IMG/VR virus record: IMGVR_UViG_3300005578_000001
Coordinates: 17,813 to 81,812 of that record
From: a virus
Reading direction: 5' to 3' (one strand)
DNA length: 64,000 nucleotides
Shown: one piece after another, positions 1,376 to 58,688 of the stretch
Numbering within the stretch: the first letter of the stretch is position 1
Layout: every line of letters begins with the position of its first letter
Position numbers and translations under genes: made by a program
Notes under the pieces: model-generated
What the model was told of the DNA's origin: nothing
The model's input: only the letters and a program-made list of their open reading frames with translations
Database searches by the model: none

Positions 1376-1473
1376 CACCCCCAAATGAATCGCAACCGTG
1401 ATAACTTCGCAAGATCCAAGTGGTACACACCCATGCGTACTACGATCTAATTAAAAGGGAAACAAGGATAAAA

Positions 1474-1644
1474 ATGTCAAGCAATCGCCCAGACCAGAAA
1501 CCAGTTGATGCGCCGCCGCAGGATAAGCCAGTTGAGCCACAGACACCGCAGCCGAAAGGGCCACCTGTACGCCCTCGTGACGGAGAAGATCCGCCTCCTG
1601 ATTTTGGGGTTCCGGTTGGGCCGGGCAAGGGCGGCGGTGGTTAA
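1474..1644 (+). CDS. Proline/glycine-rich small protein
   Basis: A 56-residue peptide, mostly Pro, Gln, Lys and Gly, with no hydrophobic core and a Gly-rich end. The ATG at 1474 is chosen because AAGGATAA precedes it; an upstream GTG at 1420 has no ribosome site. It overlaps the 3' end of the convergent minus-strand gene by four bases. Likely disordered. Function unknown. Confidence 0.55.
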   Translation: MSSNRPDQKPVDAPPQDKPVEPQTPQPKGPPVRPRDGEDPPPDFGVPVGPGKGGGG

Positions 1645-2237
1645 GCTGGTAGAAATTGACCGTTCGCTGCGCGGCGCTTGAAGTGGCTACTATTCTCATA
1701 TTGCTCTTGAATGGTAGCCCACCGCGTATTTAGCGGCCAACTCTTTTCAAGGCACTGCCTACACTCACCACAGGAATAGTTGCCGTCATTGTTGATGCGG
1801 TCAACAGAGTGCTTGATAGAAGGTTTGAGACCCATTATTCGTAGGAAATTGGTGAACTCTTGAAACCCTTCGCACATTACAATCCCGCGCCCTCCGTAAC
1901 GATGCCATCCCGGATAGTAGTTTGGGTTACTTGTCCGCTGTTTAGCGTGATCCCAGCTTCGGTATTCAGGCGAGTGACCATTCTTGACGCGATTGTGCCC
2001 ATGCTTAAACCACTGCTGCGTCGTTTGCTCAACTCTCCAGCAACCACAAGACTTACTTCCGTTTCGCTCCAGCGTCCGGATGTTTACCGCGCGCCATTCA
2101 CCGCAGTCACAACGACAGATCCAATAAAAGGCGTTGCCTTTACGAGACTCTTGGCGCGAATAAGCAAAACAGAATACCGTCCAGCGTTCGTATCGCTTTC
2201 CTTCGTAGCCGTTGATATACTTGGACAATCTAGGCAT
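1641..2237 (-). CDS. Phage AP2/HNH-type homing endonuclease-like protein
   Basis: 198 residues. The N-terminal half carries a zinc-ribbon-like Cys-x-Cys-x-Cys-Gly ... Cys-Gly-Cys motif. The C-terminal half has the conserved block Tyr-Arg-Ser-Trp, Arg-Tyr-Gly-Gly-Arg-Gly-Ile, Phe-x-x-Phe-x-x-x-Met-Gly, Val-Asp-Arg-Ile-Asn-Asn-Asp-Gly-Asn-Tyr and Thr-Arg-Trp-Ala-Thr. This block is shared by a large family of mobile phage proteins usually annotated as HNH or AP2-domain. An insertion Cys-Gly-Glu-Cys-Arg-Gln-Cys splits the last block. It stands alone on the strand opposite its neighbours, as freestanding homing nucleases do. Activity not certain. Confidence 0.75.
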   Translation of the reverse strand: MPRLSKYINGYEGKRYERWTVFCFAYSRQESRKGNAFYWICRCDCGEWRAVNIRTLERNGSKSCGCWRVEQTTQQWFKHGHNRVKNGHSPEYRSWDHAKQRTSNPNYYPGWHRYGGRGIVMCEGFQEFTNFLRIMGLKPSIKHSVDRINNDGNYSCGECRQCLEKSWPLNTRWATIQEQYENSSHFKRRAANGQFLPA

Positions 2238-2267
2238 CTGATAGCTCCGTTTCAGCTATTGGAATGG

Positions 2268-2297
2268 GATCGTCGAAGGCTGACACCTTTGACGATC
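2268..2297. promoter_or_regulatory. 12-bp inverted repeat between divergent genes
   Basis: GATCGTCGAAGG at 2268-2279 and CCTTTGACGATC at 2286-2297 pair over 12 bases with one mismatch around a 6-base loop. It lies between the start of the minus-strand endonuclease-like gene (2237) and the plus-strand gene at 2315, with no U-tract on either side. It is therefore more like an operator or processing hairpin than a terminator. Confidence 0.5.
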
Positions 2298-2314
2298 TTG
2301 CCTATTGTAACATT

Positions 2315-2824
2315 ATGAGCGCTTTTCCCGCCACTGCTGCCGATGGAAAGAACGTGCTTGCCGCGGTTAACGAAGTCACGCTACTGCGAGACGTGCTAGT
2401 ACGTGAGATTCGCGCGTTGGGGGCTCTGTATGTTGTTGGTAAGCGTCGGCCTATCTCTGAGCTACCAGAAGACAAGCAAATACAGATACGGGAAGCCTAT
2501 GCGAATACAGGCTGGGCCTCAGACTATTGCGTTGAGATGCAGGGGGTCTTTACCTCACAAAGACTTGCGGAAGATACCTGTAAGTCAAAAGGCGCGAACT
2601 GGTTTTATACGCGCTTGCCAATTGATTCATGCTTACCAGACGAAGTAGTATTTGGTGAATGGGCGCATCAGTTTCCCGGCTCAGACGCCACCGAGCTTTA
2701 TGAAAATTTGCGGGCGGCGACAGTGGCAATGCCAGTTAGTCAATTACGACTTCTGGAAGAAGAAGCAGCGCGATTGTTGGAGATAATTAAATCGGCCCGT
2801 AGTACGACAGAGAATTCCCCGTGA
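2315..2824 (+). CDS. Hypothetical protein, possible lysis-region product
   Basis: 169 residues, soluble, with Trp and Cys in the centre (Asn-Thr-Gly-Trp-Ala-Ser-Asp-Tyr-Cys) and a C-terminal helix rich in Glu/Leu. The ATG at 2315 is preferred to the in-frame 2264 because the latter lies before the inverted repeat at 2268-2297. No catalytic motif of a known endolysin is visible. Position between the holin-like gene and a membrane coiled-coil gene fits an accessory structural or lysis protein, but this is context only. Confidence 0.6.
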   Translation: MSAFPATAADGKNVLAAVNEVTLLRDVLVREIRALGALYVVGKRRPISELPEDKQIQIREAYANTGWASDYCVEMQGVFTSQRLAEDTCKSKGANWFYTRLPIDSCLPDEVVFGEWAHQFPGSDATELYENLRAATVAMPVSQLRLLEEEAARLLEIIKSARSTTENSP

Positions 2825-2834
2825 AGACGATGCG

Positions 2835-3281
2835 ATGCAAATCTCACCTGCTCCGATCACATGGACCGAAGTGTTTCGCCTCCTCATTGCTACCTCCATC
2901 GGCTTAATTCCCTTTCTCGTAACCACTTATCGTAATAGAAAGAAGTCGGACTTAGAGAATAAGGAGATTGAGGCACGGGCTGAACTTGCTAGGGTAAACG
3001 CGCGCAGTACTGAGTTTAGAGACAACATCGCAGCAGGAGAGGGTGTAGGTAAACTATTGAGTGCCCTTATTGAGGCTGGCGATACAATTCACGAATTACA
3101 AGGAAAGAACTTCCAATTGGAACAGGACAAGCTTGGCGAAGATATGCTGCGATTGGATCTTAAGAAGGCGATCGCTTTACTTGCTTTCCATTCGATCCCT
3201 TTCCATACCGCTGAACATCAAGACGTAAAAAAGATGGTGGAAGCCTATGAGAATCTAGCAAAGCGCCGATCGAAATCGTGA
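2835..3281 (+). CDS. Membrane-anchored coiled-coil protein
   Basis: 148 residues. Residues about 12-33 form one hydrophobic helix followed directly by Arg-Asn-Arg-Lys-Lys, and residues 36-115 form a charged coiled coil. The arrangement (N-in anchor, cytoplasmic coil) mirrors the protein at 591-944 in reverse and resembles spanin or holin-accessory subunits, though no lipobox is present. It ends three bases before the bidirectional terminator at 3284-3314 and is the last plus-strand gene before the minus-strand arm. Confidence 0.7.
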   Translation: MQISPAPITWTEVFRLLIATSIGLIPFLVTTYRNRKKSDLENKEIEARAELARVNARSTEFRDNIAAGEGVGKLLSALIEAGDTIHELQGKNFQLEQDKLGEDMLRLDLKKAIALLAFHSIPFHTAEHQDVKKMVEAYENLAKRRSKS

Positions 3282-3283
3282 TA

Positions 3284-3314
3284 ACAAAAGAGACGCCACC
3301 CACGCAGCGCCTCT
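3284..3314 (-). terminator. Rho-independent terminator between convergent operons
   Basis: Stem AGAGACGC (3289-3296) pairs with GCGCCTCT (3307-3314), with one G-U in minus-strand RNA. Read on the minus strand it is followed by UUUUG. It sits between the stop of the plus-strand gene at 3281 and the stop of the minus-strand gene at 3319. A close copy occurs at 12145-12177. Confidence 0.75.
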
Positions 3315-5831: not shown

Positions 5832-6671
5832 ATGTCTAACAACCACCTAAGCAAAGACAAACAGATTGCAGTTACGGAAGCACTAGCCGAAGGTAATTCG
5901 ATCCGGTCGATAGAGAGAATGACCGGAATTCATCGTGACACGATCATGCGCTTAGGTGTTCGCGTTGGTCAAGGCTGTGCTGAATTGTTGGATCAGAAGA
6001 TGCGCAACCTCGATTGCAACCGCATCGAGCTGGATGAAATTTGGGGATTTATTGGCAAGAAGGTCCGTCACCTGCGTGAAGATGACGATCCGACATTTGG
6101 CGACGTTTGGACCTACTGCGCGATTGATGCTGAGACTAAGCTTGTGCCTTCGTACAAGGTTGCCAGCAAGCGCAATCTACCCAACACAATCGATTTTATC
6201 AGCGACCTTAAAGCGCGGATGAACAATCGCATTCAGATCTCGTCAGATGCGATGCTCTCTTATGAAGAAGCTATCGACACGGTGTTCGGGATGGATGTCG
6301 ATTATGCGCAGATTGTAAAAACCTACGGCACAGACGAAAGTAAGTACAGCACACCAGAACGTAAGTATTCCCCTTCGCGTATCACGGACAGTGAGAAGAT
6401 CTGGAAGATGGGCCAGCCCGAAGCGCGCTACGTTTCAACTAGCTACGTTGAGCGCTTGAATGCGTCTACCCGCTTGCACGTTAAGCGTCTCAATCGTCTT
6501 ACGCTCGCGTTCAGTAAGAAGCTGGAAAACTTCGAGGCTGCGGTTTCCCTTCACTTCGCGGCGTACAATTTCGTGCGCACTCACAGCGCGGTGAAGATGA
6601 CGCCCGCGATGGCAGCCGGAGTCACGCGTAACTTCTGGTCCTATGGCGATCTAGTCGAGGCAGTTCTATGA
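5832..6671 (+). CDS. IS1-family DDE transposase
   Basis: 279 residues in one frame, not split like classical IS1 InsA/InsB. An N-terminal helix-turn-helix (residues about 8-40, Ser-Ile-Arg-Ser-Ile-Glu-Arg-Met-Thr-Gly) precedes the catalytic core. First Asp is in Glu-Leu-Asp68-Glu-Ile-Trp-Gly-Phe-Ile-Gly-Lys-Lys, second in Ser-Ser-Asp139-Ala, and Glu in Tyr-Val-Glu207-Arg-Leu-Asn, followed by the basic Arg-Leu-x-x-Lys-Arg-Leu helix of IS1 enzymes. Ribosome site GGAGAC lies before the ATG. Full length with all catalytic residues, so probably active; it explains the 9-bp target duplication. Confidence 0.9.
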   Translation: MSNNHLSKDKQIAVTEALAEGNSIRSIERMTGIHRDTIMRLGVRVGQGCAELLDQKMRNLDCNRIELDEIWGFIGKKVRHLREDDDPTFGDVWTYCAIDAETKLVPSYKVASKRNLPNTIDFISDLKARMNNRIQISSDAMLSYEEAIDTVFGMDVDYAQIVKTYGTDESKYSTPERKYSPSRITDSEKIWKMGQPEARYVSTSYVERLNASTRLHVKRLNRLTLAFSKKLENFEAAVSLHFAAYNFVRTHSAVKMTPAMAAGVTRNFWSYGDLVEAVL

Positions 6672-6985
6672 GCGACTATATCGCAGAAATCCAAGCGGTC
6701 TTTTTGAAGCTACACGGATGCGATGCGCAGTACGTTGAAAGCGTCCCTGTCGTCGAGGAATTTCAGGGTGAAACGATCTGGCAAGGCGATGTAGAGGTAT
6801 TCGATCTTGTGGGCCATCCGAAAGCAAAACGTGGATATGGATGGGGATATATGACAACCGATAGCGGTGGTCGGCGCTACTTCACAGTGTTGGAACTACC
6901 GCCCGTAGATTCACCACAAACGGCAGTCAAAATAGCGATAGCGTCGGAGATTAAGAATGCGAGAGAAAAGAAAAAAGGTAGGTAG
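6668..6985 (+). CDS. Transposase-coupled conserved hypothetical protein
   Basis: 105 residues, overlapping the transposase stop by ATGA, so co-translated. It contains Tyr-Val-Glu-Ser-Val-Pro-Val, a Phe-Gln-Gly-x-Thr-Ile-Trp-Gln-Gly-Asp-Val-Glu-Val-Phe block, Gly-His-Pro-Lys-Ala-Lys-Arg and a closing Val-Leu-Glu-Leu-Pro-Pro-Val-Asp-Ser-Pro. The style recalls a widespread bacterial hypothetical family of unknown function. An accessory role in transposition is inferred from the coupling only. Confidence 0.7.
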   Translation: MSDYIAEIQAVFLKLHGCDAQYVESVPVVEEFQGETIWQGDVEVFDLVGHPKAKRGYGWGYMTTDSGGRRYFTVLELPPVDSPQTAVKIAIASEIKNAREKKKGR

Positions 6986-11135: not shown

Positions 11136-11795
11136 CTATTCTTCAACGGTTGCCTCAAACATTCCAAACTGCCCCGGCGTAGGGCTTCCCGGTCGCCAGT
11201 TTCCTAACCCCTTGTAGCGACCTGCTAATTCAAGGATCTGTCGGAGAATCTTGACTGTAATCGCCTCATCCATGATGACGATCCGCCCCTCAGTGGCCCA
11301 CTGCTCGAAGCGTGGCCGCACTCGTATATGCTTACTTTGACCTACGCGCACGCGCTTGACGAACAACGAGAATCCAAGCTTCCGCACCCCTTCGATATGT
11401 TCGACAAAATGAGCCTTGTCCTTAAGATCGTTGATATCAGACATAGAGATCGTCGCGCCTGAGCCATTAATGAAGAGAGGCCAGTGAAACTCAGGGCATA
11501 ACAAACCGCTTTGCGATTGTGCCTTAAAAGTCTTCTTCCCCGATCCGGTCGGCACCTGAGCCCCGCCTTCCATCAGACAGCGCATGATATATTCACTTGG
11601 AATGGTAACGATTTCCCCGTCCGTATTCAGCGAGCCAATCCAGCGAAACGGCGGCGTTCGATCGTCGCCAGCTTTCGACTTCGCTTTATTCTCAGGTTCT
11701 TTACGCCACTCGTCCATCGCGTCAGACCACTCGATATTATCAGCGTGCATGAGTAGGGGCGTTAAGCCCTTAATGGTAACTTTTACGTTTAACAT
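11136..11795 (-). CDS. Phage RAMP/Cas7-like protein of unknown role
   Basis: 219 residues. The opening Val-Lys-Val-Thr-Ile-Lys-Gly-Leu-Thr-Pro-Leu-Leu-Met-His, the Pro-Ser-Glu-Tyr-Ile-Met-Arg-Cys-Leu step and the closing Gly-Asn-Trp-Arg-Pro-Gly ... Gly-Gln-Phe-Gly-Met-Phe occur in a phage family resembling the RRM-type fold of RAMP/Cas7 proteins. No CRISPR array is present. A nucleic-acid-binding role in replication or recombination is plausible. It precedes the palindrome-rich region. Confidence 0.6.
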   Translation of the reverse strand: MLNVKVTIKGLTPLLMHADNIEWSDAMDEWRKEPENKAKSKAGDDRTPPFRWIGSLNTDGEIVTIPSEYIMRCLMEGGAQVPTGSGKKTFKAQSQSGLLCPEFHWPLFINGSGATISMSDINDLKDKAHFVEHIEGVRKLGFSLFVKRVRVGQSKHIRVRPRFEQWATEGRIVIMDEAITVKILRQILELAGRYKGLGNWRPGSPTPGQFGMFEATVEE

Positions 11796-11807
11796 AGACC
11801 GTTTCCC

Positions 11808-12089
11808 TTAGAGCCCAAAAACCTCACGGGCTTTTTCCAATCGTTGTAGATAGCCGCCATTACGTTTGCCTGCTTTAGAAGCCCAGCGAAACCGATGGCC
11901 GGGGAATACTTCAGCTTGGTCTACCAGTCCCGCTTTAACCAGCTTAGCGGTATGCGCACGTACCGTTCGCGCTGAAATAGCGCCTTCGATTTGCTGCGCG
12001 ATCTCCGAGTTGGTCAGCCACTTACTTTCGTCGCCGCGCAGGACTAAGTAAACTTTTAATTCGTGGATTGAGACTTCGCTTTTCTCCAT
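11808..12089 (-). CDS. Winged-helix DNA-binding protein
   Basis: 93 residues. A helix-turn-helix with Trp-Leu-Thr-Asn-Ser-Glu-Ile-Ala, Ile-Ser-Ala-Arg-Thr-Val-Arg-Ala-His-Thr-Ala-Lys-Leu-Val-Lys-Ala-Gly-Leu-Val, then a wing with Phe-Arg-Trp, is a MarR/ArsR-style winged helix. ATG 12089 is used although no strong ribosome site precedes it; a TTG at 12125 is the alternative. Likely a regulator of the adjacent genes. Confidence 0.75.
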   Translation of the reverse strand: MEKSEVSIHELKVYLVLRGDESKWLTNSEIAQQIEGAISARTVRAHTAKLVKAGLVDQAEVFPGHRFRWASKAGKRNGGYLQRLEKAREVFGL

Positions 12090-12144
12090 ACGGCGGAGTA
12101 TGGCATGGTGAGGCGAGGCAGTCAACTATCAATATGACCGTAAA

Positions 12145-12177
12145 CAAAAGAGACGCCACCCCACCCGCAGCGTCTCT
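12145..12177 (-). terminator. Rho-independent terminator (twin of 3284-3314)
   Basis: AGAGACGC (12149-12156) and GCGTCTCT (12170-12177) pair perfectly; on the minus strand UUUUG follows. It lies 5 bases beyond the stop of the secreted Cys-rich gene. The stem sequence is shared with the terminator at 3284-3314. Confidence 0.8.
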
Positions 12178-12182
12178 CTCAA

Positions 12183-12437
12183 TCAGTAAACCTGATACCA
12201 CTCACACAAGGGACACATCACTACTCCACAGTTGTACATGAAATCCTTGTGGTAGGCATCGCAGTAGGTAGTGGAGTGACTTTGATAGCATTGATAAAGC
12301 AACGCCTGGTAGTCCTGAAAACAAGTTGACTGGCAGTTAGTGCAGAACTTATCCATACACTTAGCCGGAGGCGCGGAGCTGAAGAATACGCTCAAGCTCA
12401 AGAGCATGAGCATGGCCATGAGAATTAGTTTGCGCAT
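12183..12437 (-). CDS. Secreted Cys-rich small protein
   Basis: 84 residues with a signal peptide (Met-Arg-Lys, hydrophobic to about residue 20, cut near Ser-Ala-Pro-Pro-Ala) and a mature part with ten Cys in pairs (Cys-Thr-Asn-Cys, Cys-Pro-Leu-Cys). Ribosome site AAAGGAAAA seven bases upstream. A disulphide-rich exported phage protein in the early arm suggests action on the host envelope, such as superinfection exclusion, but this is inference. Confidence 0.7.
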   Translation of the reverse strand: MRKLILMAMLMLLSLSVFFSSAPPAKCMDKFCTNCQSTCFQDYQALLYQCYQSHSTTYCDAYHKDFMYNCGVVMCPLCEWYQVY

Positions 12438-12480
12438 TTGAGTTTTCCTTTTGTTAGATGAGTGATTTGCGAGGAGTTAA

Positions 12481-12516
12481 CAGGAAAGACGCTACCCGCT
12501 GGAAACGTCTCTCCTG
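12481..12516. terminator. Hairpin, possible bidirectional terminator
   Basis: CAGGAAAGACG (12481-12491) and CGTCTCTCCTG (12506-12516) pair over 11 bases with one mismatch; CTCTTTT follows on the plus strand. It separates the 12633 gene from the secreted protein gene and shares the GACG/CGTCTC stem core with the two other terminators. Confidence 0.6.
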
Positions 12517-12632
12517 CTCTTTTCCCGTTGCTGACCAGTTAGAACCATTAGCTGGAATCAACAACTTGACTTTCCTTTTAACTCGTCCCTCCTTTCAAGG
12601 TTGGATTTGACTACTTCCCTGCTTGATAGAAT

Positions 12633-13001
12633 TTAATCGCTATCACCGTACTCCCATTGACTACGACAGCGCGGGCAAGTCTGGATACCTTCAAACCAGT
12701 GGAAAGTGTACTCGCCATTGAATGATGTTCCGGTTCGTTCACATTTAAACCAGCCTTCAAAACTACCCCATTCCCAGCTATAGCCGCAAAACTCACAAGG
12801 ATCGTAGTGACCCGGATAGCACCACCTAATCCACCATTTCTTAATCGGCGCTCGCTTGCCTGTGCTCCAGTACAACTTACTACCACCATGAGCCCAGACC
12901 CAGAGCCGTATCTGTAACCAATAGTAACCAAACCAGCGCCAGAACAGAGGGTGATCTGAATGCCATGCAAGTTGATCTTTGTTGTCAGCTATCGCACTCA
13001 T
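12633..13001 (-). CDS. Trp-rich zinc-ribbon protein
   Basis: 122 residues from ATG 13001, overlapping the previous stop (TGATG). Very rich in Trp and Tyr in the N-terminal half (Trp-Phe-Gly-Tyr-Tyr-Trp-Leu-Gln), then Cys-Glu-Phe-Cys-Gly-Tyr and Cys-Pro-Arg-Cys-Arg pairs that could bind one zinc. Residues 20-40 could lie on a membrane surface. Unknown function. Confidence 0.65.
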   Translation of the reverse strand: MSAIADNKDQLAWHSDHPLFWRWFGYYWLQIRLWVWAHGGSKLYWSTGKRAPIKKWWIRWCYPGHYDPCEFCGYSWEWGSFEGWFKCERTGTSFNGEYTFHWFEGIQTCPRCRSQWEYGDSD

Positions 13002-19576: not shown

Positions 19577-20296
<720 letters not shown>

Positions 20297-43886: not shown

Positions 43887-44003
43887 ATGTTGAATCTGAG
43901 TCGCCTCAGATCATCAGTTATCTTTGACGCGAAGGCGCAAAGGTTCGGCTTCTGGCCCATGAGCCAAGCGCAAATCAGGGCCACACTCAACTATGTTAAA
44001 TGA
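43887..44003 (+). CDS. 38-aa leader peptide before the scaffold gene
   Basis: Starts just after the promoter and ends in ATGA overlap with the next ATG, so it may couple translation of the scaffold gene. Contains Phe-Gly-Phe-Trp-Pro-Met-Ser-Gln-Ala-Gln. No family recognised. Confidence 0.5.
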   Translation: MLNLSRLRSSVIFDAKAQRFGFWPMSQAQIRATLNYVK

Positions 44004-45211
44004 CTCGCAGGCTGATAATCATCGGAGGCCCGCACGTTGGTAAGACAACTCTTGCCCAGCGGTTCAAAGACGAATTTGGAATCTCCACGACTCGCCATAG
44101 TGATGACGTTAAACATCTTGGCTGGAGTGAATCGAGCGAATTTGCCTCGAAGTGGTTCAGTGAACCGGGCGAGTGGGTAATTGAAGGTGTGCAGATGGCG
44201 CGGGCCCTCAGGAAATGGCTGAAAGCTAATCCTGAAACGCCCTTAGACGCTGATATTCTGATACTTGAAAAGCCCTTTGGCCCACTGTTGCAAGGCCAGC
44301 AGTCGATGGCTAAAGGCGTACAAACGGTTTTCAGGGAAATACAAGGGGATTTAATAAAACGCGGCGCGCGGATTCACAGGTTAAGCAATCCGGACGACGC
44401 GATTGGCATTATAAATACTTCTCCCGAGCGTGATGCAGAGGAAAACCAGAAAGGTGTGATACCTCGAATGGGCTACAAGAAAACCTTAACCAAGGCCGAA
44501 TGGGAGGCGCTACCGGAAACGGCGCGCCAGGCGCTTACTGAACAGAAGGTCTATGTTGCGGATGGCGAGAATTGGAAGCTTGACGCCGACGATTCCGACG
44601 ATGTGACAAAACTCTCAGCTGCGATCAAAAAAGAGCGTGAGGCTCGGGCGCAGGCAGAGAAAGACCTGAAAGCGGAGCGCGACAAACTAAGTGGAGTCGA
44701 TCTTGAACGATACAACCAACTCATCGCGGAGGCTGACGCCAAAGAAACCGACGAGTTGAAGTCCAAAGGCAAGATTGACGAACTTATTGAGAAACATAAC
44801 AAGGAAAAGAAGGCCATCAACGACGGCTGGGAAAAGAAATACAACGACCTGACGGCAGATTTCAACACGCTGCGGGTCGATCACAGGCTTCGTAAGGCTT
44901 TCGAAGATGGCGGCGTGATCGCGGATCGCATCGATGATGCGGTTGAGCTAACCAAGAAAGTTGTAAAGCTCACGGATAAAGGCGATCTCCAGGTGCTTGA
45001 TGATGATGGCTCCCCAATGGACGCGAGCCTTGACATCTACGCCAAGGAATTGCTGAAAGAGCGCAAGCCGTGGCTTTACGCGGCGAGTAACGCTGGCGGA
45101 ACCGGAGCCCAAAACGGCACACATATCTCGCCTTCGGGTGTAGATCTTTCCAAGCTCTCGGCCACAGAGAAGCTGAAGTATGCTAATCGAGTGGAGGCCG
45201 GAGCTACGTAA
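44000..45211 (+). CDS. P-loop NTPase fused to capsid scaffolding protein
   Basis: 403 residues. Residues 1-140: Leu-Ile-Ile-Ile-Gly-Gly-Pro-His-Val-Gly-Lys-Thr-Thr Walker A at 9-17, then Asp-Ala-Asp-Ile-Leu-Ile-Leu as a possible Walker B, like small nucleoside kinases or ATPases. Residues about 195-290: long charged coiled coil (Lys-Lys-Glu-Arg-Glu-Ala-Arg-Ala-Gln-Ala-Glu-Lys-Asp), and a C-terminal part, like phage GP20-type scaffolds. It lies just before the major capsid gene, where scaffolds are found. The fusion is unusual; the frame is continuous. Confidence 0.75.
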   Translation: MTRRLIIIGGPHVGKTTLAQRFKDEFGISTTRHSDDVKHLGWSESSEFASKWFSEPGEWVIEGVQMARALRKWLKANPETPLDADILILEKPFGPLLQGQQSMAKGVQTVFREIQGDLIKRGARIHRLSNPDDAIGIINTSPERDAEENQKGVIPRMGYKKTLTKAEWEALPETARQALTEQKVYVADGENWKLDADDSDDVTKLSAAIKKEREARAQAEKDLKAERDKLSGVDLERYNQLIAEADAKETDELKSKGKIDELIEKHNKEKKAINDGWEKKYNDLTADFNTLRVDHRLRKAFEDGGVIADRIDDAVELTKKVVKLTDKGDLQVLDDDGSPMDASLDIYAKELLKERKPWLYAASNAGGTGAQNGTHISPSGVDLSKLSATEKLKYANRVEAGAT

Positions 45212-45225
45212 AGGAGTAACACTAA

Positions 45226-46152
45226 ATGGCACTCACGCTCGTGGAAGCTGCCAAGCTTAATTCGGGAGAAGTTAAGCGCAGCGCGATCATTGAGTTATTT
45301 GCGCAAGGTTCAGACATCTTACGCACCCTTCCTTTTGACACCATCGCCGGAAACGCCCTCCAGTACAATCGTGAGGAAACCCTGCCCGGCATCGGTTTTC
45401 GTGGAGTCAACGAAGCCTACACAGAATCAACGGGCGTGATCAATCCAGTCACCGAACCGCTGGTTATCGCGGGCGGTGATCTTGACGTTGACGTATTTAT
45501 TCTTGACACGATGGGGCAGGATCAACGCGCCGTGCAGGAAGCGATGAAGACCAAAGCCCTTGCCCTGCGCTGGTCACAGGCAATCATCAAAGGTGACTCG
45601 ACGGTTGACCCGCGCGTGTTTGATGGCCTACAGGTCAGACTGACAGGCTCGCAGAAGATTCAGGCTGGCACTACGGCCAACGGTACGCCGCTCTCTCTTG
45701 CGAAGCTGGACGAAGCCATCGACGCGGTTGATTCACCTACGCACCTGATTATGAATAAGACCATGCGGCGTTTGCTTACTGCTGCTGCGCGCGCGACTAC
45801 CGTGAGCGGGTACATTACTTACGGGCAGGATGAATTCGGGCGCTCGATAACGAAGTACAACGATCTCCCGATCCTGATTATCGAGCAGGATAATGCGGGC
45901 AATGAGATCCTACCATTCACTGAGACTGCCACTTCAGGCACCGCGACTGCAACCTCCATCTACGTCGTCTCTTTCATGGAAGGAAAACTACAAGGTATTC
46001 AGAATAGCGTGATGAGCGTGCGTGATTTGGGCGAGTTGCAAACGCAGCCCGTCAAACGTACTCGCGTGGAGTGGTATGCTGGTATTGCCCTCTTCCACCC
46101 GCGCGCTGCTGCGCGTCTCTGGTCCATCTCAAACGGCGCCGTGACTGCGTAA
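45226..46152 (+). CDS. Major capsid protein (HK97-like fold)
   Basis: 308 residues with strong AAAGGAG site. Leu-Pro-Phe-Asp-Thr-Ile-Ala-Gly-Asn-Ala-Leu-Gln-Tyr-Asn-Arg-Glu, the long spine helix near residues 100-120, Thr-His-Leu-Ile-Met-Asn-Lys-Thr-Met-Arg-Arg, and the end Val-Glu-Trp-Tyr-Ala-Gly-Ile-Ala-Leu-Phe-His-Pro-Arg-Ala-Ala are typical of HK97-type capsid proteins. Follows the scaffold gene. Confidence 0.85.
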   Translation: MALTLVEAAKLNSGEVKRSAIIELFAQGSDILRTLPFDTIAGNALQYNREETLPGIGFRGVNEAYTESTGVINPVTEPLVIAGGDLDVDVFILDTMGQDQRAVQEAMKTKALALRWSQAIIKGDSTVDPRVFDGLQVRLTGSQKIQAGTTANGTPLSLAKLDEAIDAVDSPTHLIMNKTMRRLLTAAARATTVSGYITYGQDEFGRSITKYNDLPILIIEQDNAGNEILPFTETATSGTATATSIYVVSFMEGKLQGIQNSVMSVRDLGELQTQPVKRTRVEWYAGIALFHPRAAARLWSISNGAVTA

Positions 46153-49986: not shown

Positions 49987-51471
49987 GTGGCTAATGCGAC
50001 CATTCGAGACTCAACTCTCACTAATCCGGGCAGCACAGGCTCGACCATCACCGTAACCCTCCCTACTCATGCTGCTGGCGATATAATTTACATTTGCATA
50101 GGTAACACGGGTAATACGCTCTGGACGGGAAATCCGGCGGGCTGGAATCGTATCCAGCAGGTACAGGTAGGCACAACCACCAATGGCTTACTGGGCACGT
50201 GGTTCTGGCGATTGGTTTTGTCCGGTGACTCCTTACCGCTGGCGAATCCGGTCTTTACTCTTGGGGCCACAGTTAGCCGGATGGCAATTGCGCGTTCCAT
50301 TCAGGGCGCTGATACTGAGGGTCCGTTTGCGCTCGGCGAATGGACGGCACGTAACTACACCACGGGCACGGCTAATCCCGTGCGGCCCGGCACGATCACG
50401 ACGCTTGCACCCGAGTCTCTTGTCTTGCATGACTATCTCTCGCGAGCGGCAACCAACGCTCCCGATCCATCTGGTTACACTCAGGATGAGGAAATCATTA
50501 TCAGTGGCACACTGGTTGGTAATGGTAGTCAGAAGGTAGTAGCAGATCAGCAAACCGCTCTCACTAATCAGGACGCCTCACCTGCCTCCGGAGTGCGCTG
50601 GGCCGCAGGGATTATTGCTGTCCCTTCCCCAAGCTATCCTTACTATCGCGCCTCAAGCTCGGCAACAACAGCTAGTGGTACAAATGTCACCCCAGCTTTA
50701 CCTACAGGTTCAACTGCCAGTGACGTTAACGGTCGTAAAGATGTCTTGATTGCCACGCTTGAAGGGGCAGGCTCAACCACTCTTTCAATGACGGACAGTG
50801 CCTGGAACGAGATTACGGGATTCACAAACACCACCAGTGGCGGAGGTAGTTCGGTCAAGAAGTTTTGGGCCTACATGAGTGGGACTCTGAATCGCCAGTG
50901 TAATCGCACCGGAACAGGAGAGTTAAGCGCTTATATCAACACTTATCACAACTGTCACCAGACTGCCCCGGTAGGTGCGGTAAATAACGCCCAAGTCGCC
51001 TCTTCAACTACTTCAACATGGAACGCCCTCAGTCGTACCAATACAAAAGTTGCGATGAATGCTACTTGTATAGCGGATGCTCTGCCGTCGTTCACCGCCC
51101 CCTCAGGTTGGACCGAGCGCATGGACGGTTTGGGTATGACCTGTGCCGATCAGCCGTTTAACGCCACTGGCTCAACCACCTCGGCGGCTTTCACTCTCTC
51201 GACTGCGAGTCCGACACTGGTAGGTCTGATTGAGTTGGTAGGGGCTGCGAGCGTGGCCCTGCCTGTGGATCTGGTGGTGAATAACGGGGCGCATGCCCAG
51301 ACAGCGGCGAATGCAGTTCTGACTCAGGTGCATGTTTTAGCGGTAGCGAATGCGGCTCATGCTCACACGGCAGAGAATCTGACGGTAACGACTACAGAAG
51401 TTATTGCACCTAAACCAGCCAACTATCGCAGGTTTCGCGCGGATAGCAACCTGTCGGTATGGACCGAGTAA
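49987..51471 (+). CDS. Large appendage protein with two His-x-His repeats
   Basis: 494 residues, GTG start. Two paired beta-sandwich-like halves (residues 1-215 and 220-410), then two copies of the repeat of the 53780 gene (Asn-Ala-Ala-His-Ala-His-Thr-Ala) and a C-terminal Arg-Phe-Arg-Ala-Asp-Ser-Asn-Leu-Ser-Val-Trp-Thr-Glu shared with its downstream neighbour. Probably a fibre subunit. Confidence 0.7.
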   Translation: MANATIRDSTLTNPGSTGSTITVTLPTHAAGDIIYICIGNTGNTLWTGNPAGWNRIQQVQVGTTTNGLLGTWFWRLVLSGDSLPLANPVFTLGATVSRMAIARSIQGADTEGPFALGEWTARNYTTGTANPVRPGTITTLAPESLVLHDYLSRAATNAPDPSGYTQDEEIIISGTLVGNGSQKVVADQQTALTNQDASPASGVRWAAGIIAVPSPSYPYYRASSSATTASGTNVTPALPTGSTASDVNGRKDVLIATLEGAGSTTLSMTDSAWNEITGFTNTTSGGGSSVKKFWAYMSGTLNRQCNRTGTGELSAYINTYHNCHQTAPVGAVNNAQVASSTTSTWNALSRTNTKVAMNATCIADALPSFTAPSGWTERMDGLGMTCADQPFNATGSTTSAAFTLSTASPTLVGLIELVGAASVALPVDLVVNNGAHAQTAANAVLTQVHVLAVANAAHAHTAENLTVTTTEVIAPKPANYRRFRADSNLSVWTE

Positions 51472-52125
51472 ATGGCCCAGCGTAACTATTTAATCAGCAC
51501 TACAGGGATTTCCACTACCGCATCCGGCACTACTATCGGCTCAGGAAATACGCAATCCTCCACCTTTGTAGTAGCACAGACGCTGGTGCGAACCGGGATT
51601 AATGCGGGTGAGTTTTTAAGTGGCTCACAGGCATGGGCTATCCATTACGTTGTTTCAGCCATGTCTACCCCGTATGAGATGCGGCTGAAGGCGCAGCGGC
51701 GTAATTCGTCCGGCACTATGCAGGCTGAGTCAGGTTTTGGCACGACTCGATCGGCAACCGGAACTTATGACGATAGCCTGACCGCCGATCTCGGCACGTG
51801 GGCTGCTAACGATCAACTCGCCGTCGTCTGGGAACACCGCCGACCTTCGGGCACAGGTAACAAGTCAGCCACGATAGATGCGAATGGCTCTTCATACATT
51901 GATGCGCCAGCAGTCGTCAACACTTCGCTGACGGTCAATAACGCAAGTCATACCCATTCAGCGGGGAATGTGGTTCTAACGCAGGTGCATAGTCTTGTAA
52001 CGGCAAATGCCAGCCACGCTCAGACCAGTGATAGTCCGGCTTTAACATCGATCGAAGCTGTACGTAAGCCTGCTAATTATCTTAGATTTAGGGCAGATGG
52101 AAATCTCTCAGTATGGAGTGAGTAG
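51472..52125 (+). CDS. Appendage protein sharing the C-terminal adaptor
   Basis: 217 residues, ATG directly after the previous stop. N-terminal beta domain, then two His-containing repeats (Ala-Ser-His-Thr-His-Ser-Ala) and a terminal Arg-Phe-Arg-Ala-Asp-Gly-Asn-Leu-Ser-Val-Trp-Ser-Glu almost identical to that of the 49987 gene. The shared end suggests a common docking site. Confidence 0.7.
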   Translation: MAQRNYLISTTGISTTASGTTIGSGNTQSSTFVVAQTLVRTGINAGEFLSGSQAWAIHYVVSAMSTPYEMRLKAQRRNSSGTMQAESGFGTTRSATGTYDDSLTADLGTWAANDQLAVVWEHRRPSGTGNKSATIDANGSSYIDAPAVVNTSLTVNNASHTHSAGNVVLTQVHSLVTANASHAQTSDSPALTSIEAVRKPANYLRFRADGNLSVWSE

Positions 52126-52809
52126 ATGAGTGCCTTTCTTTCCGCGACCTTTACAGTTGGTACTGACACGGTGTTGGGCTCGTACACCGCTGAGATAGGT
52201 GGGCCGTTTACGCTTCATCCGTCATACACTGGCTCAGTACTAGTCAACGCTTCACTCGATCGTGCTTATCTCAACTCAGCTGCGACTGCGGCTTACTATG
52301 ATAACGGCACATCACCGGGCGCAGACTACGAGGTGCAGCTTGACTTCTTTAGGCTTACCCAGATAGCGACGAATGTAAGCCTGATTCTGGCGTTGGATAC
52401 AAGCGCGGATACGGGCATCTTATTGCGACTCAACGACACAGGCGCAGCGGTGCAATGGGAAGTAATCGATCGGGTAGCCGGATCGAATACGATCCTGAAC
52501 GGTGGCGCAGCAGTAAGTGGCTCCCACATTCCGAGTCTCGGAGGGGCGGGAGTCACGGCGAAACTCGTTCGTACCGGAACCTCTATTACAGTCTTCTTTG
52601 ATGGTGTACAGGATACCGCCTTGAACTGCACGACCGGGATAACCGCTATCGGGAAGGCGGGTATCAGGTGTTCAGGGCAGGGATCGTCCACGACGGGAAT
52701 TCAGATTGACAACCTTTCGGCCACCGGATCGACCGTAGCGCAGGGAAGTATTTCGTTTAGGCCAAATAAATTAAGGCCGCGCATTTTTGCGCCGGGACAC
52801 CCGCGATGA
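52126..52809 (+). CDS. Lectin-fold (LamG/concanavalin-like) appendage protein
   Basis: 227 residues. Alternating strands with Ala-Asp-Tyr-Glu-Val-Gln-Leu-Asp-Phe-Phe, Gly-Ile-Leu-Leu-Arg-Leu-Asn-Asp, Val-Arg-Thr-Gly-Thr-Ser-Ile-Thr-Val-Phe-Phe-Asp-Gly-Val and Ile-Gln-Ile-Asp-Asn-Leu-Ser fit a concanavalin/LamG-type sandwich, often a carbohydrate-binding domain in phage fibres. Confidence 0.65.
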   Translation: MSAFLSATFTVGTDTVLGSYTAEIGGPFTLHPSYTGSVLVNASLDRAYLNSAATAAYYDNGTSPGADYEVQLDFFRLTQIATNVSLILALDTSADTGILLRLNDTGAAVQWEVIDRVAGSNTILNGGAAVSGSHIPSLGGAGVTAKLVRTGTSITVFFDGVQDTALNCTTGITAIGKAGIRCSGQGSSTTGIQIDNLSATGSTVAQGSISFRPNKLRPRIFAPGHPR

Positions 52810-53783
52810 GTATCAACGCTTTCACTTTTAATCTCCAGCACGGCGAAGGCACTGATGGCGCTACGAATTACCAACGTCAAATTACCGCAATGGCTGGGGC
52901 GGATTTGATTGCTGTGCAGGAGCGTAGTGATCCCGACACAGGCTGGGACACGCCGATGTCGAATGCCGGATTGGCCCAAGCAATTTATCAGCCAAATCAA
53001 ATTGGCGGTGGTGACGGAAACGCGATCTGGTACAAGTCGGGTACGGTTACAGTTTTACAAACATGGGCTGTGCAGTTGTCGGTCGGTGCCCAGACAGGTT
53101 GGAGTGGTACGAACGTAGACAAGTGCGCGGTGATCGCCAAGGTACAGGCTGAAGGGCAGAAGTTCTACTTTGTCGGCACGCATCTGTGTCAGGCGGCGGG
53201 GGCTGATTCCAACGGCGCGATTACTTCCACTATCCGCGAGAATCAGATTAAGACGTTACTAGAATTCATCGATCACAATCTCTTTGGCTTGGATATACTG
53301 ACAGCGGCTGACTTCAACTATGGCATCCCTAACTATCAACTGAACGGCGGTGGATTACAGGAGGATCTCTTCGAGCGAGCGGGCTTTGTTGACCAGTGGC
53401 GGGAAGGGATAGCACGAGGAGTCGCCACTGTTCCGTGGGCCAATCTTGACAGCACAGGCGGCGCTGATATGGTTGTCGGTGAGTCGATCATCACCCACGA
53501 CACGCGCTGGATTGATAGCTTGAAGAAACGCACCGTGAATCACGCGCTCACGTTAACAGGAATCAGGGTTCAAGATATGCGTGTAACCTGTTCGACTTCG
53601 CTGACAGGCTCACCGCTGCGTTGTCCTGATGTTTCTGATCCTAATCTAACAGGTACGGTACTGGACTATGGAGTAAGACCCACGGATCATAATCCAATGG
53701 ATGCGACTTTCAGCGTGAACCAAACAGCAGCCGCTCCGGTGAAACGTACAACCTATTCGTGGATGCCTAATGTGAGTTTATGA
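52806..53783 (+). CDS. Endonuclease/exonuclease/phosphatase-fold protein
   Basis: 325 residues. Phe-Asn-Leu-Gln-His-Gly near the start (Asn9), Asp-Leu-Ile-Ala-Val-Gln-Glu39-Arg, Val-Gly-Thr-His-Leu, Ala-Ala-Asp-Phe-Asn-Tyr and a closing Asp-His-Asn-Pro-Met are the metal and catalytic motifs of the EEP (DNase I-like) family. A Trp/Pro-rich C-terminal strand end links to the fibre cluster. It overlaps its neighbours by four bases, so it is made with the fibre genes. Confidence 0.8.
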   Translation: MSINAFTFNLQHGEGTDGATNYQRQITAMAGADLIAVQERSDPDTGWDTPMSNAGLAQAIYQPNQIGGGDGNAIWYKSGTVTVLQTWAVQLSVGAQTGWSGTNVDKCAVIAKVQAEGQKFYFVGTHLCQAAGADSNGAITSTIRENQIKTLLEFIDHNLFGLDILTAADFNYGIPNYQLNGGGLQEDLFERAGFVDQWREGIARGVATVPWANLDSTGGADMVVGESIITHDTRWIDSLKKRTVNHALTLTGIRVQDMRVTCSTSLTGSPLRCPDVSDPNLTGTVLDYGVRPTDHNPMDATFSVNQTAAAPVKRTTYSWMPNVSL

Positions 53784-55315
53784 GTTTCCCCTCGCTTCGC
53801 TCCGGCTCGTTAAATCCGCTCGCTACTGGCGCGGCGGTAGTTATCGATCTGGTCGTTCAGAATGCGACTCACACTCAGACGGCAGAATCCCCAGCCTTAA
53901 CTCAAGTCCATTCTTTAGCGGTTAATAACGCTGCGCACGCTCACACTGCGCAGAATATCGTCCTGACTCAGGCTCACGTGTTAGTAGTTGCAGACGCAAG
54001 TCACACGCACACGGCCCAATCGCCGACACTTACTCAGGTTCATAACCTCACAGTACAGAATGCCACCCACGCCCACTCGGCAGGTAACATAACTCTCACG
54101 CAGGCACATCAGTTAAGTGTCAACAGCGCCGCACACGGGCACTCCGCGGCTAATGTTTCAGTTACTCAAGCACATATACTGGTAGTTGCTGACGCCGTCC
54201 ATTCTCATTCCGCTCAGTCGCCCACACTTACACAGGTTCATGGTCTAGCGGTTCAGGGCGCATCACATTCTCACTCAGCCCAAAGTCCCGTGCTTACACA
54301 AGTACACTCGCTGGTGGTAAACAACGCCAGCCATGCTCATGCCGCGGCCAACATTGCTCTGGCTCAGGTACACGAGTTGGTGGTCCAGTCAGCCGCACAT
54401 GCCCATACAGCGGGAAACGTTGCGCTCGATCAGGCGGCGAATCTCGTGGTGCAGAACGCCAGCCATGCACACAACGCCGGGGGTTTAGTGTTAACTCAAG
54501 TACATGTGCTGGTAGTGAATCCCGCAAGCCACACTCACTCAGCGGATAACGTGACACTAACGCAGGCACATCAACTATCCGTTAACGAAACCACGCACAG
54601 CCATATAGCGCAATCTCTTACTCTTACACAAGTACACAGTCTCACAGTTCAAGACGCAGTTCACGCTCAGGCCGCGGATAGTTTTGCCTTGGGAGGCGAA
54701 GGGGATCTTGCGGTCAACAACAGCGTTCACGGTCATTCAGCGCAGAGCCCCGTTCTTACACAGGCGCATGAACTGGCAGTCAGTAACGCCAGCCATGCTC
54801 ACGTGGCTGATAACGCGGTGATCACGGTCAATACTTCGCTACAGGTTCAGGACACAACTCATGCGCTCGTATCCGACTCGCCAACGTTGACGGGTGTGCA
54901 CATCTTGACCGTCTCAAGTGGTACTCACGCCCACTTGGCTGAGAGTCTACTACTGGGCATTCCCGGTCAACTGGAACCGCGGGCAGGTGTTCACGCGCAC
55001 ACGGCTGAGAGTCCGAATCTGACTCAGGTTCACGAGCTGGTTGTGCAGGGCGCTTCGCACGGCCATACAGCCAACGCACCGGAATTGAATCAGACGCATG
55101 TGCTCAGTATTAGCAGTGGAATCCACGGCTTAACGAGCAGCTCTCCAACCTGTACGCAAGCCCATGTTCTGAGAATTCAAGGCGCAACTCATCCTCACAC
55201 CGCGGAGAACGTCAGGTTTGCAAGAAAATTGCGCACCATAAAGACAGAGACACGTGTTACTATTTCCGACACAGGCACGGGGAGCTTTACTTTAATCACG
55301 AGCAGGCAACATTAA
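53780..55315 (+). CDS. Histidine-repeat fibre protein
   Basis: 511 residues. After 23 residues, a 22-residue unit of the form Leu-Thr-Gln-x-His-x-Leu-x-Val-x-x-x-x-His-x-His-x-Ala-x-x-x-x repeats about 21 times without gaps to residue 479. A short charged beta end follows. Alternating hydrophobic residues suit a long triple-stranded beta fibre. The central His-x-His of each repeat could bind a metal ion, as in the T4 long tail fibre tip (known for gp37). No coiled coil. Repeats differ at the DNA level, so they are old. Confidence 0.75.
   Translation: MSFPSLRSGSLNPLATGAAVVIDLVVQNATHTQTAESPALTQVHSLAVNNAAHAHTAQNIVLTQAHVLVVADASHTHTAQSPTLTQVHNLTVQNATHAHSAGNITLTQAHQLSVNSAAHGHSAANVSVTQAHILVVADAVHSHSAQSPTLTQVHGLAVQGASHSHSAQSPVLTQVHSLVVNNASHAHAAANIALAQVHELVVQSAAHAHTAGNVALDQAANLVVQNASHAHNAGGLVLTQVHVLVVNPASHTHSADNVTLTQAHQLSVNETTHSHIAQSLTLTQVHSLTVQDAVHAQAADSFALGGEGDLAVNNSVHGHSAQSPVLTQAHELAVSNASHAHVADNAVITVNTSLQVQDTTHALVSDSPTLTGVHILTVSSGTHAHLAESLLLGIPGQLEPRAGVHAHTAESPNLTQVHELVVQGASHGHTANAPELNQTHVLSISSGIHGLTSSSPTCTQAHVLRIQGATHPHTAENVRFARKLRTIKTETRVTISDTGTGSFTLITSRQH
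53849..55216 (+). repeat. 66-bp tandem coding repeat, about 21 units
   Basis: Each unit encodes 22 residues with the His-x-His core. Units are diverged in sequence and codon choice but keep phase exactly; a few (for example near residues 304 and 350) have lost the Leu-Thr-Gln-x-His end. Confidence 0.85.
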
Positions 55316-55316
55316 G

Positions 55317-55862
55317 GTGGCCGATATCACCATCAAGCGTGGCAATCTTTCACCGAGCATCATTATGATCGCGCGGGACGCAATTGGCCCGGCAGATTTA
55401 GAAGGCGTGACGGCGGTGTTTCGCATGGTGAATGTACTTAATGGCGTGGCTAAGGTAGACGATGAAACCGCCACGCCAGCACCAGGAATTGCGTTCACTG
55501 CCAGTGGGGCCACGTTGACCGCCGTCGATCACCCACTCAATGACGGTGAATCAGTAACGTTAACTACGACGGGTAATCTGCCCGGCAACCTCTCAACGCA
55601 GAAGGAGTACTTTGTAGTCAACTCGACTCATGACGAGCTTAGCCTTGCACTCGTACAGGGCGGTTCGCCGATTGTTACCGCCAATGCCGGAACGGGGACA
55701 CATACGCTACTGAGTGGGCGCGTCACCTACGACTGGCAGACAGGCGACACTGATACGGCGGGAACATACTACGGTGAGATTCGGACGATGTTGAGTGGGA
55801 AGTTGTTGAGCTATCCGAATACGAGACAGTTATTGATTGAGGTGATTTCAGATCTTGGTTGA
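55317..55862 (+). CDS. BppU-like baseplate upper protein
   Basis: 181 residues, GTG start. Ile-Lys-Arg-Gly-Asn-Leu-Ser-Pro, Ala-Asp-Leu-Glu-Gly-Val-Thr-Ala-Val-Phe-Arg-Met and Val-Thr-Tyr-Asp-Trp-Gln-Thr-Gly-Asp-Thr-Asp-Thr-Ala-Gly-Thr-Tyr-Tyr match the N-terminal BppU/DUF2479 fold that joins fibres to the baseplate. A middle insertion (residues 55-120) resembles an extra beta domain. Confidence 0.8.
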   Translation: MADITIKRGNLSPSIIMIARDAIGPADLEGVTAVFRMVNVLNGVAKVDDETATPAPGIAFTASGATLTAVDHPLNDGESVTLTTTGNLPGNLSTQKEYFVVNSTHDELSLALVQGGSPIVTANAGTGTHTLLSGRVTYDWQTGDTDTAGTYYGEIRTMLSGKLLSYPNTRQLLIEVISDLG

Positions 55863-57102
55863 TCCGCTACAGAGCCCAATAGTATCCGGTGGCATCATGC
55901 TACTACTGACGGGAAGCTTGATTGCCCTATGCCGCAAGTTACCGATCTACCTTTGGAAGTGGCTTGTGCGTCGTATTACAATCGTTGTTGATGTTTCAAA
56001 TGACGATCCGCTATTCGCTTGGCTTTCCCTGTGGCTTGCAGAACACCCTTATAGCCTAAAAGCACGTGCGTTAACGGCCACATCTGAGCGGGATGACTAT
56101 GGCCGGACGATGGTCGGTCCTACCCATGATGCTGGCGAACTGCCGCAGGTATTGTTAACCCCCGCTCCCGGCAATCATCTGCTCTGGTACAAGCGTCGCC
56201 TTGTTTGGCTATCGCGGGAACGTAAAGAAACGTCTCCGGGTAAAGAAGATTCCTTTGTGAGTCTCTGGAAACGCGAAGTCTTTACGCTTCGAGTGATCGG
56301 GCGTAGCCAGCAAGCCGCCAAGTCTCTACTCCAAGACGCGCGTGCCGTTGCGCTCAATCGCCGCTCTCGCAAAGTCGAAGTGTTTTCGGCGAGCTATGAC
56401 TATTGGCAGAGAATTGATGAACGCGATCCTCGCCCTCTTTCAAGCGTATTCCTTCCTGATAACTGCGCGGAATTGGTTACGTCCGACATTGAAGCGTTCT
56501 TTGCGAATCAATACTGGTACACGGAGCGTGGCATTCCGTGGCAGCGTCGTTATCTTTTTCACGGTGTACCCGGCTCAGGTAAGACATCACTTATAGTTGC
56601 CCTTGCGGGTCACTTTCGGATGAATCTCTACATTCTCAACCTTGGCAGTCCGTACCTGACGGATGACTCGCTGATGAATCTCCTGTCAAAGGTTCCTGCC
56701 CGCAGCTTTACGTTACTTGAGGATATTGACGCCGCATTTAACCGCCGAGCGAAATCAGATGACGCTAAAAATAAACTGACGTTCAGTGGGCTACTGAATG
56801 CTATTGACGGTGCTGCATCAAAGGACGGGTCAATGATCTTTATGACGACTAACCATAAGGATCAACTGGATCCAGCACTCACCCGCGCTGGACGTGCAGA
56901 TATGCACGTAGAGTTCTATGCGGCCACCGCAGAACAGGCGAACCGGATGTTTCTCGCGTTCTTTCCTGATGCTCAAGGTGCAGACAGCTTTGGTGATAGA
57001 GTCACCGCGCTGGGAATGAGCATGTGTGACGTGCAGAACCATTTAATTGATCACAAGGACTCTTGTGTTCGCGCGCTCAACAGTTTAGTTAAGGCCGCAT
57101 AA
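55855..57102 (+). CDS. BCS1-like membrane AAA+ ATPase
   Basis: 415 residues by TTG 55855 (ATG 55897 is an alternative within the first span). A membrane helix at about 13-27, a BCS1_N-like middle (His-Leu-Leu-Trp-Tyr-Lys-Arg ... Leu-Arg-Val-Ile-Gly-Arg) and an AAA core: Gly-Val-Pro-Gly-Ser-Gly-Lys-Thr-Ser at 237-245, Leu-Leu-Glu-Asp-Ile-Asp at 287-292, Thr-Asn-His-Lys-Asp-Gln-Leu-Asp-Pro-Ala-Leu and Arg-Ala-Gly-Arg-Ala-Asp. Bcs1 moves a folded protein across the mitochondrial inner membrane; the phage role is unknown. Overlaps the BppU-like gene. Confidence 0.85.
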   Translation: MVDPLQSPIVSGGIMLLLTGSLIALCRKLPIYLWKWLVRRITIVVDVSNDDPLFAWLSLWLAEHPYSLKARALTATSERDDYGRTMVGPTHDAGELPQVLLTPAPGNHLLWYKRRLVWLSRERKETSPGKEDSFVSLWKREVFTLRVIGRSQQAAKSLLQDARAVALNRRSRKVEVFSASYDYWQRIDERDPRPLSSVFLPDNCAELVTSDIEAFFANQYWYTERGIPWQRRYLFHGVPGSGKTSLIVALAGHFRMNLYILNLGSPYLTDDSLMNLLSKVPARSFTLLEDIDAAFNRRAKSDDAKNKLTFSGLLNAIDGAASKDGSMIFMTTNHKDQLDPALTRAGRADMHVEFYAATAEQANRMFLAFFPDAQGADSFGDRVTALGMSMCDVQNHLIDHKDSCVRALNSLVKAA

Positions 57103-58086: not shown

Positions 58087-58302
58087 ATGTCAGAAGAATA
58101 CATAAAACTATCGATGACGCAGGAACAGGGCTGTGCAAATCCGTACTCAACCGGAGGATTGATACCACATCCCCGATCAATGACCACCTTCCCGTTAAAC
58201 GGAGAAACATATTCCGTCATTGTAGATAAAACCACACATCGAATCCGCTTTCAGGATGAAACGGAGTCGGGTGTTGTGATCGTCATTGAACCTAAGACGT
58301 AA
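58087..58302 (+). CDS. Small hypothetical protein of the neck region
   Basis: 71 residues from ATG 58087, three bases after the previous stop. Gly-Glu-Thr-Tyr-Ser-Val-Ile-Val-Asp-Lys and Gly-Val-Val-Ile-Val-Ile-Glu, a small beta protein. Overlaps the next gene at the stop codon. Confidence 0.55.
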   Translation: MSEEYIKLSMTQEQGCANPYSTGGLIPHPRSMTTFPLNGETYSVIVDKTTHRIRFQDETESGVVIVIEPKT

Positions 58303-58688
58303 TGGATCGATTAACCGCACAGGGTAAAGCCTTCTCCGCCGCACAAGGTGCGATGTACACGGATCGCTGTACTGTCCGGCGCATCTCCAAAGTAAAAGGA
58401 CCGGATATGGGAAATTCGAATAGCGAGACGATTCTCGCGTCCAATGTTCCCTGTCGAATCAGCCCGTCGAGTGCGAATGAGCGAATGGTTGCCGGAGCTG
58501 TTGAGGGTGTCGCGAGTTTCACGGTCAGACTTCCGTTCTGGCAGGGCGATCACCCGATCACGGTAGGCTCAACTTGTCTTCTTGATATTCATGCTCGTGA
58601 AGAAACACCAGCACAAACGCTAGCCGTGATCGCTCCGCTGCCGGGGTCTTCCACGAAGATCGATATGGTGGCGATCAGGCAGTCGTAG
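58302..58688 (+). CDS. Head-closure/neck protein
   Basis: 128 residues. Tyr-Thr-Asp-Arg-Cys-Thr-Val-Arg-Arg, Ser-Asn-Val-Pro-Cys-Arg-Ile-Ser-Pro, Phe-Thr-Val-Arg-Leu-Pro are typical of SPP1 gp16-type stopper or DUF6093-like proteins that close the head. Followed by HK97-gp10-like and tail-terminator-like genes, as usual. Confidence 0.7.
   Translation: MDRLTAQGKAFSAAQGAMYTDRCTVRRISKVKGPDMGNSNSETILASNVPCRISPSSANERMVAGAVEGVASFTVRLPFWQGDHPITVGSTCLLDIHAREETPAQTLAVIAPLPGSSTKIDMVAIRQS

Follow-up and report, generated by a model that had tools for sequence, protein, structure and literature searches.

We propose, with moderate confidence, that the gene at 53780-55315 encodes an exchangeable phage fibre shaft whose conserved faces would pack inward in a trimer, with a row of His-x-His (HxH) pairs able to hold metal. 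The gene lies in a 64,000-nucleotide stretch of the virus record IMGVR_UViG_3300005578_000001 (positions 17,813 to 81,812 of that record; hereafter, the window). Coordinates are those of the window unless a related locus (L number) is named.

The array gene (+ strand), whose ATG overlaps the stop of the upstream ORF, encodes a protein of 511 aa that consists of a 21-residue leader (residues 1-21, 53780-53842, up to the base before 53843), 21 HxH units and a C-terminal cap (residues 484-511, 55229-55312), all on the + strand. The units occupy residues 22-483 (53843-55228) without gaps, each with 22 residues or 66 bases, and the approximate count of 21 in the initial annotation is thus exact. 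The self-identity of the protein was 0.40 at an offset of 22 versus about 0.05-0.12 at offsets other than multiples of 22, and the best value from 2000 shuffles over periods of 5-59 was 0.155. Position 10 is His and position 3 is Leu in 21/21 units, and position 12 is His in 17 (two Gln and two Leu in the others). The HxH first described for every unit therefore holds for its first His throughout, and in its strict form for 17 units, not 21; the second His claimed for each unit (position 1) was found in 16 and is missing in five. Ala14 (19/21), Leu19 (17/21) and Ala8 (15/21) also recur, and small and polar residues predominate in the array. Chance or low-complexity His as the source of the pattern was ruled out by the shuffles and by the spacing-shifted pattern scan described below.

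The array is old and is maintained by selection on the protein rather than on the DNA. No DNA repeat was reported at the array by Tandem Repeats Finder. At the third positions of 4-fold codons the agreement between units was 0.277 (0.253 expected), at an amino-acid identity of 44%, and the invariant Leu of the units is encoded by all six codons. The synonymous sites are thus saturated while the protein pattern has been kept, indicating age and protein-level selection, and a recent tandem duplication of DNA is ruled out. Elsewhere, at 19684-19821, there is a GGC-rich tandem repeat with best rows of period 21 and 48.

The distribution of the repeat was profiled with a pattern in which three HxH motifs, the first two extended to HxHxA, are spaced by 22 residues. 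This pattern matched at least 119 stretches in IMG/VR, and a true unit was present in 80 of the 119 matches listed; with the spacing shifted by one base, a single match was obtained. In a set of bacterial and archaeal genomes with one genome per species there were at least 118 pattern matches, four of them genuine among the matches listed. One of the four (L158) is a prophage region from the Sphingomonadales that includes genes for portal, protease, capsid and adaptor, and another (L228, Sphingopyxis) has a Mu Gam-like gene nearby. A bacterial protein family was ruled out on these grounds, with 4/118 listed genome matches genuine, one a clear prophage and one near the Mu Gam-like gene. Among 50,697 records of isolate phages one has the repeat, Microcystis phage Mae-JY22, whose protein XAI95683.1 shares the 22-residue HxH repeat with the window in a shorter array; it is annotated as hypothetical, and its open frame extends upstream of the annotated start. 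The repeat was not found in any plasmid record. Judged by these matches, the repeat is a phage module that is real and common in uncultured phages.

The repeat is apparently undescribed in the family libraries searched. The database search proposed in the initial annotation thus returned a repeat that is widespread in IMG/VR and has no family in Pfam, PHROGs or NCBIfam. A profile of the repeat had no match among PDB chains, and a single-sequence PDB search gave only weak matches to a fimbrial subunit (best E 0.012), which were taken as chance. PF12789 (Phage tail repeat like) did not match the window array and matched 5 of 67 relatives weakly (best E 0.0013), and a profile comparison with two sequences taken as its 11-residue type gave a probability of 1.6.

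The anatomy of the unit was studied in 277 units, chosen only for having good units on both sides. His10 was conserved in 98%, Leu3 in 94%, His12 in 92% (Gln in 6%), Ala14 and Leu19 in 88% each and Ala8 in 73%, figures that are biased upward because most of the loci were found by the HxH pattern; the window array was not so selected. HxH is the most conserved feature of the unit, and the third His was conserved in just 48% of the 277 units. A spacing of 22 residues was dominant in 86 proteins. Conservation alternates along two strands, positions 6-7 and 15-16 are occupied by turn-forming residues, and couplings between positions i and i+2 support the two strands. The alternating hydrophobic residues noted at the outset are borne out, and as the HxH is in phase with them it is probably buried; the alternation suggests that the pair probably faces inward.

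The genes of the window are ordered as terminase, portal, scaffold, capsid, fibre block, adaptor and major tail proteins. The array gene sits in the head module, between the major head protein (phrog_212, 45226-46152, +) and the head-tail adaptor (phrog_615, 58302-58688, +), and the same placement is seen in prophage L158. Two further genes of the block end in HxH units, on which the initial annotation was silent. The first (49987-51471, +, 494 aa) has two units and a tail in its last ~70 residues (about 51256-51468), and this end is common to the next gene at 54% identity. The next gene (51472-52125, +, 217 aa) encodes a conserved domain (residues 1-146, to about 51909), after which come two units and the tail; the domain was modelled as a beta-sandwich with low overall confidence, and its best Foldseek matches were CBM22 domains. 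They are followed by a gene of 227 aa without a family match (52126-52809, +), which has a homologue in L257, and by a gene (52806-53783, +) with a weak endonuclease/exonuclease/phosphatase match (PF03372, E 0.0043, below the cut-off) that is also conserved in L257. Downstream of the array gene lies a conserved gene (55317-55862, +) that is shared with L004 and L256.

Other genes of the structural modules were recorded as well. A BCS1-like AAA ATPase is encoded at 55855-57102 (+; PF08740 6.2e-36, PF00004 2.5e-18, phrog_7485), and at the corresponding place L004 has an ORF (2808-3251) with a GGQ motif that looks release-factor-like by eye. The head scaffolding protein (44000-45211, +; phrog_206 at residues 160-385) is extended at its N-terminus by a segment with a weak match to P-loop AAA domains.

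In other loci, most genes next to the repeat genes are of the terminase, portal, protease, major head and adaptor kinds, and a few match minor-tail or tail-fibre-assembly genes. Outside the repeat, the proteins of relatives carry domains such as Laminin_G_3, CBM96, DUF2341, glycine-rich and polysaccharide-deacetylase. The initial description as a fibre protein is thus backed by gene position, by the carbohydrate-binding domains fused in relatives and by the nearly pure array, and the repeat most likely forms fibre shafts of phages. The context suggests a surface adhesin or shaft on the head or neck; the gene order is compatible with a head location yet is no proof of it, a few of the neighbours elsewhere being tail genes. 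Many repeat proteins (for example, those of L022, L036, L057, L106 and L006) carry short tandem tails after the HxH array, of the type R-x-hydrophobic-x-hydrophobic, about 9-10 residues apart. In L005 a QueC-like gene (6331-6906; phrog_1550, E 4.6e-05) is immediately upstream of the repeat gene.

A comparison with related phages revealed repeat exchange. One contig (L253/L256) is syntenic with the window: the upstream anchor (gene 52806-53783) is 77% identical in L256, and the downstream gene is conserved. The protein in the slot of the array gene (IMGVR 3300003322_000058, L253:3441-4862) starts as in the window (MGFPALQSGSLNPLA in L253, MSFPSLRSGSLNPLA in the window; 12/15 identical over residues 1-15), and the ends of the two proteins are alike by eye, the window cap being KLRTIKTETRVTI and the L253 end KVRTLKSERYVII. 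Between these ends, L253 has about 20 units, mostly of 20-22 residues, of the type SVxLTGVxATxxxGTV (hereafter, LTG), with one His in 473 residues. The hydrophobic and turn positions of the LTG and HxH units match at one offset (permutation p = 0.004, with the choice of the best offset allowed for); mostly Ala, Ser or Thr takes the place of His10, and Gly, Thr or others that of His12. Because the syntenic relative fills this slot with nearly His-free repeats, the shaft cannot depend on metal in general.

The 146-residue domain of gene 51472 tells of the same exchange. It is conserved in four phages (L254 and L255, with identical proteins, counted once) and is followed by HxH units in the window and L252, by LTG units in L253 and by LSD-type repeats in L254/L255; the DNA similarity to the domain ends at window position 51908 in 3/3 comparisons. 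Within a phage the repeat type is uniform, being LTG in both genes of L253, LSD in both genes of L254/L255 and HxH in three genes of the window. The window array protein matched 47 of 50 records, not those of L253-L255, and the LTG query matched only the L253 record, in two genes; as most of the 50 records were chosen for HxH, these counts show the separation of types, not their frequency. The repeat type of the shaft thus appears to be exchangeable in one gene slot, with HxH as one of at least three types, and exchange of the full slot is seen in one syntenic pair together with the shared domain. When further relatives of the LTG array and of the upstream anchor were sought, L253/L256/L258 (one contig) and L257 were the only ones obtained. 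In L255, a glycosyltransferase/methyltransferase-like ORF (817-3300) looks, by eye, interrupted by an intein-like segment.

The coordination of Fe by six His, with HxH motifs from three chains, is established in trimeric phage fibres and spikes (PMC6116203). In the T4 gp37 needle (PDB 2XGF), seven iron ions are held by HxH motifs from the three chains (PMC6957217; PMC6116203), and six metal sites were proposed for Alteromonas phage R22Y by prediction and docking (PMC11705849). The claim in the initial annotation that the gp37 tip binds iron in this way therefore holds, and a row of such sites, a design it did not know from other phages, has precedents. The window array likewise has HxH motifs, strict in 17 of 21 units, on a putative beta-structured fibre whose fibre nature is read from the array and its context. 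Both gp37 and the array protein are phage fibre proteins with several HxH motifs per chain. However, gp37 is glycine-rich and its HxH are irregularly spaced (14, 37, 14, 9 and 9 residues after the first pair), whereas the array has 21 regular units, and hhalign of the array profile versus gp37 found no homology (probability 0.2, E 0.32, 9 aligned columns). L005 encodes both a regular-repeat protein and, in a separate fibre-tip-like ORF (11667-12680), irregular HxH motifs that resemble the T4 gp37 tip by eye. In R1/R2 pyocin fibres and P2-type phage spikes, HxH motifs at the trimer axis bind Fe through six His (PMC6116203). These proteins could serve as a model for the array, although the R1/R2 pyocin shaft has one iron site and the array a regular row of candidate sites. 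The R22Y gp12 tail fibre shares with the array the HxH motifs, the 22-residue period and proposed trimeric iron sites (PMC11705849). Its unit (HTHSIEDINGLRSEIDSKAGIE) differs from the array unit, and identity of the two repeats was rejected (hhalign probability 0.4 over 6 columns).

On these precedents, we envisage the array product as the extended shaft of a fibre on the virion surface, probably at the head or neck. Each 22-residue unit would form a strand, a turn (6-7), a second strand and a second turn (15-17), with a conserved and probably buried face (L19, Q21, H1, L3 and V5 on one strand; A8, H10, H12 and A14 on the other) and a variable opposite face. Several chains, most likely three, would pack with the conserved faces inward. 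Along the 21 units, their HxH pairs could then create as many as 17 complete six-His sites in a row, which would accept Fe2+ or a different transition metal, like the sites of T4 gp37 and R-pyocin fibres. Metal binding as in known phage fibres is plausible, and such a row would stiffen the shaft and set the register of the chains. The shaft would act as a spacer whose repeat type is exchangeable in evolution. Against this model stand the Leu or Gln at position 12 in 4/21 units, the related phage that does without the His, the lack of profile homology to gp37 and the solenoid-like single-chain prediction described next.

A possible alternative, to which we give limited weight, is a shaft formed by one chain as a beta-solenoid of 22-residue coils, the His stacking as buried ladders with or without occasional metal. 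AF2 modelled ten units as one chain, from a gapless alignment of 67 sequences, as a solenoid-like regular coil with three short strands per unit (pLDDT 69, pTM 0.55). The best TM-scores among the Foldseek matches listed for this model were to phage fibres (9rkv_M, TMq 0.56, E 0.31; BFVD A0A8S5T8B9, TMq 0.58, E 0.023), yet nothing was found at E <= 0.001. The whole array protein also scored 23.3 bits with the beta-helix family NosD (PF05048), under the curated cut-off of 23.6, and 8/67 relatives matched weakly. However, AF2 is known to assign beta-solenoids too readily to repeats (PMC11795689), and with this bias and the moderate confidence the model was not accepted as fact. Covariation between positions i and i+22 was no stronger than that between units two or three apart, and coil stacking on this basis was rejected; the similarity between adjacent units also did not exceed that between units two or three apart and so gives no sign of stacking. 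For the two-unit tail of gene 51472, outside the array, no fold was predicted (pLDDT about 31, from 4 sequences only). The trimer was preferred to the solenoid because HxH sites are already known from phage fibres and spikes (PMC6116203; PMC6957217).

The absence of a predicted fold for the tail of gene 51472 and the predominance of small and polar residues would also suit a flexible linker that is largely disordered, its repeat adopting no defined structure. We consider this unlikely, as the strand and turn pattern has been kept while synonymous sites are saturated, the 22-residue spacing is dominant and conservation alternates as in strands. It is very unlikely that iron binding serves host uptake via siderophore receptors (Trojan Horse / Ferrojan Horse) rather than as a structural staple: such a role has been suggested for marine-phage tail fibres that bear HxH (PMC11705849) and one array chain has 17 HxH, but the His are on the conserved, probably buried face, the close syntenic phage has nearly no His in the corresponding gene, and the array gene is in the head module, not with distal tail genes.

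For the trimeric shaft with its candidate metal row, the His-rich and nearly His-free versions in one slot would offer a natural paired comparison for the contribution of HxH metal sites. A more far-reaching and rather doubtful reading is that phages swap shaft-repeat types as matched sets, with the two-unit tails docking on the shaft and the HxH type being metal-stapled at 17 or more colinear sites. The fibre genes of one phage would then be all HxH, all LTG or all LSD, since tails must match the shaft. If general, such matching of repeat type across fibre genes would point to like-with-like docking in assembly.
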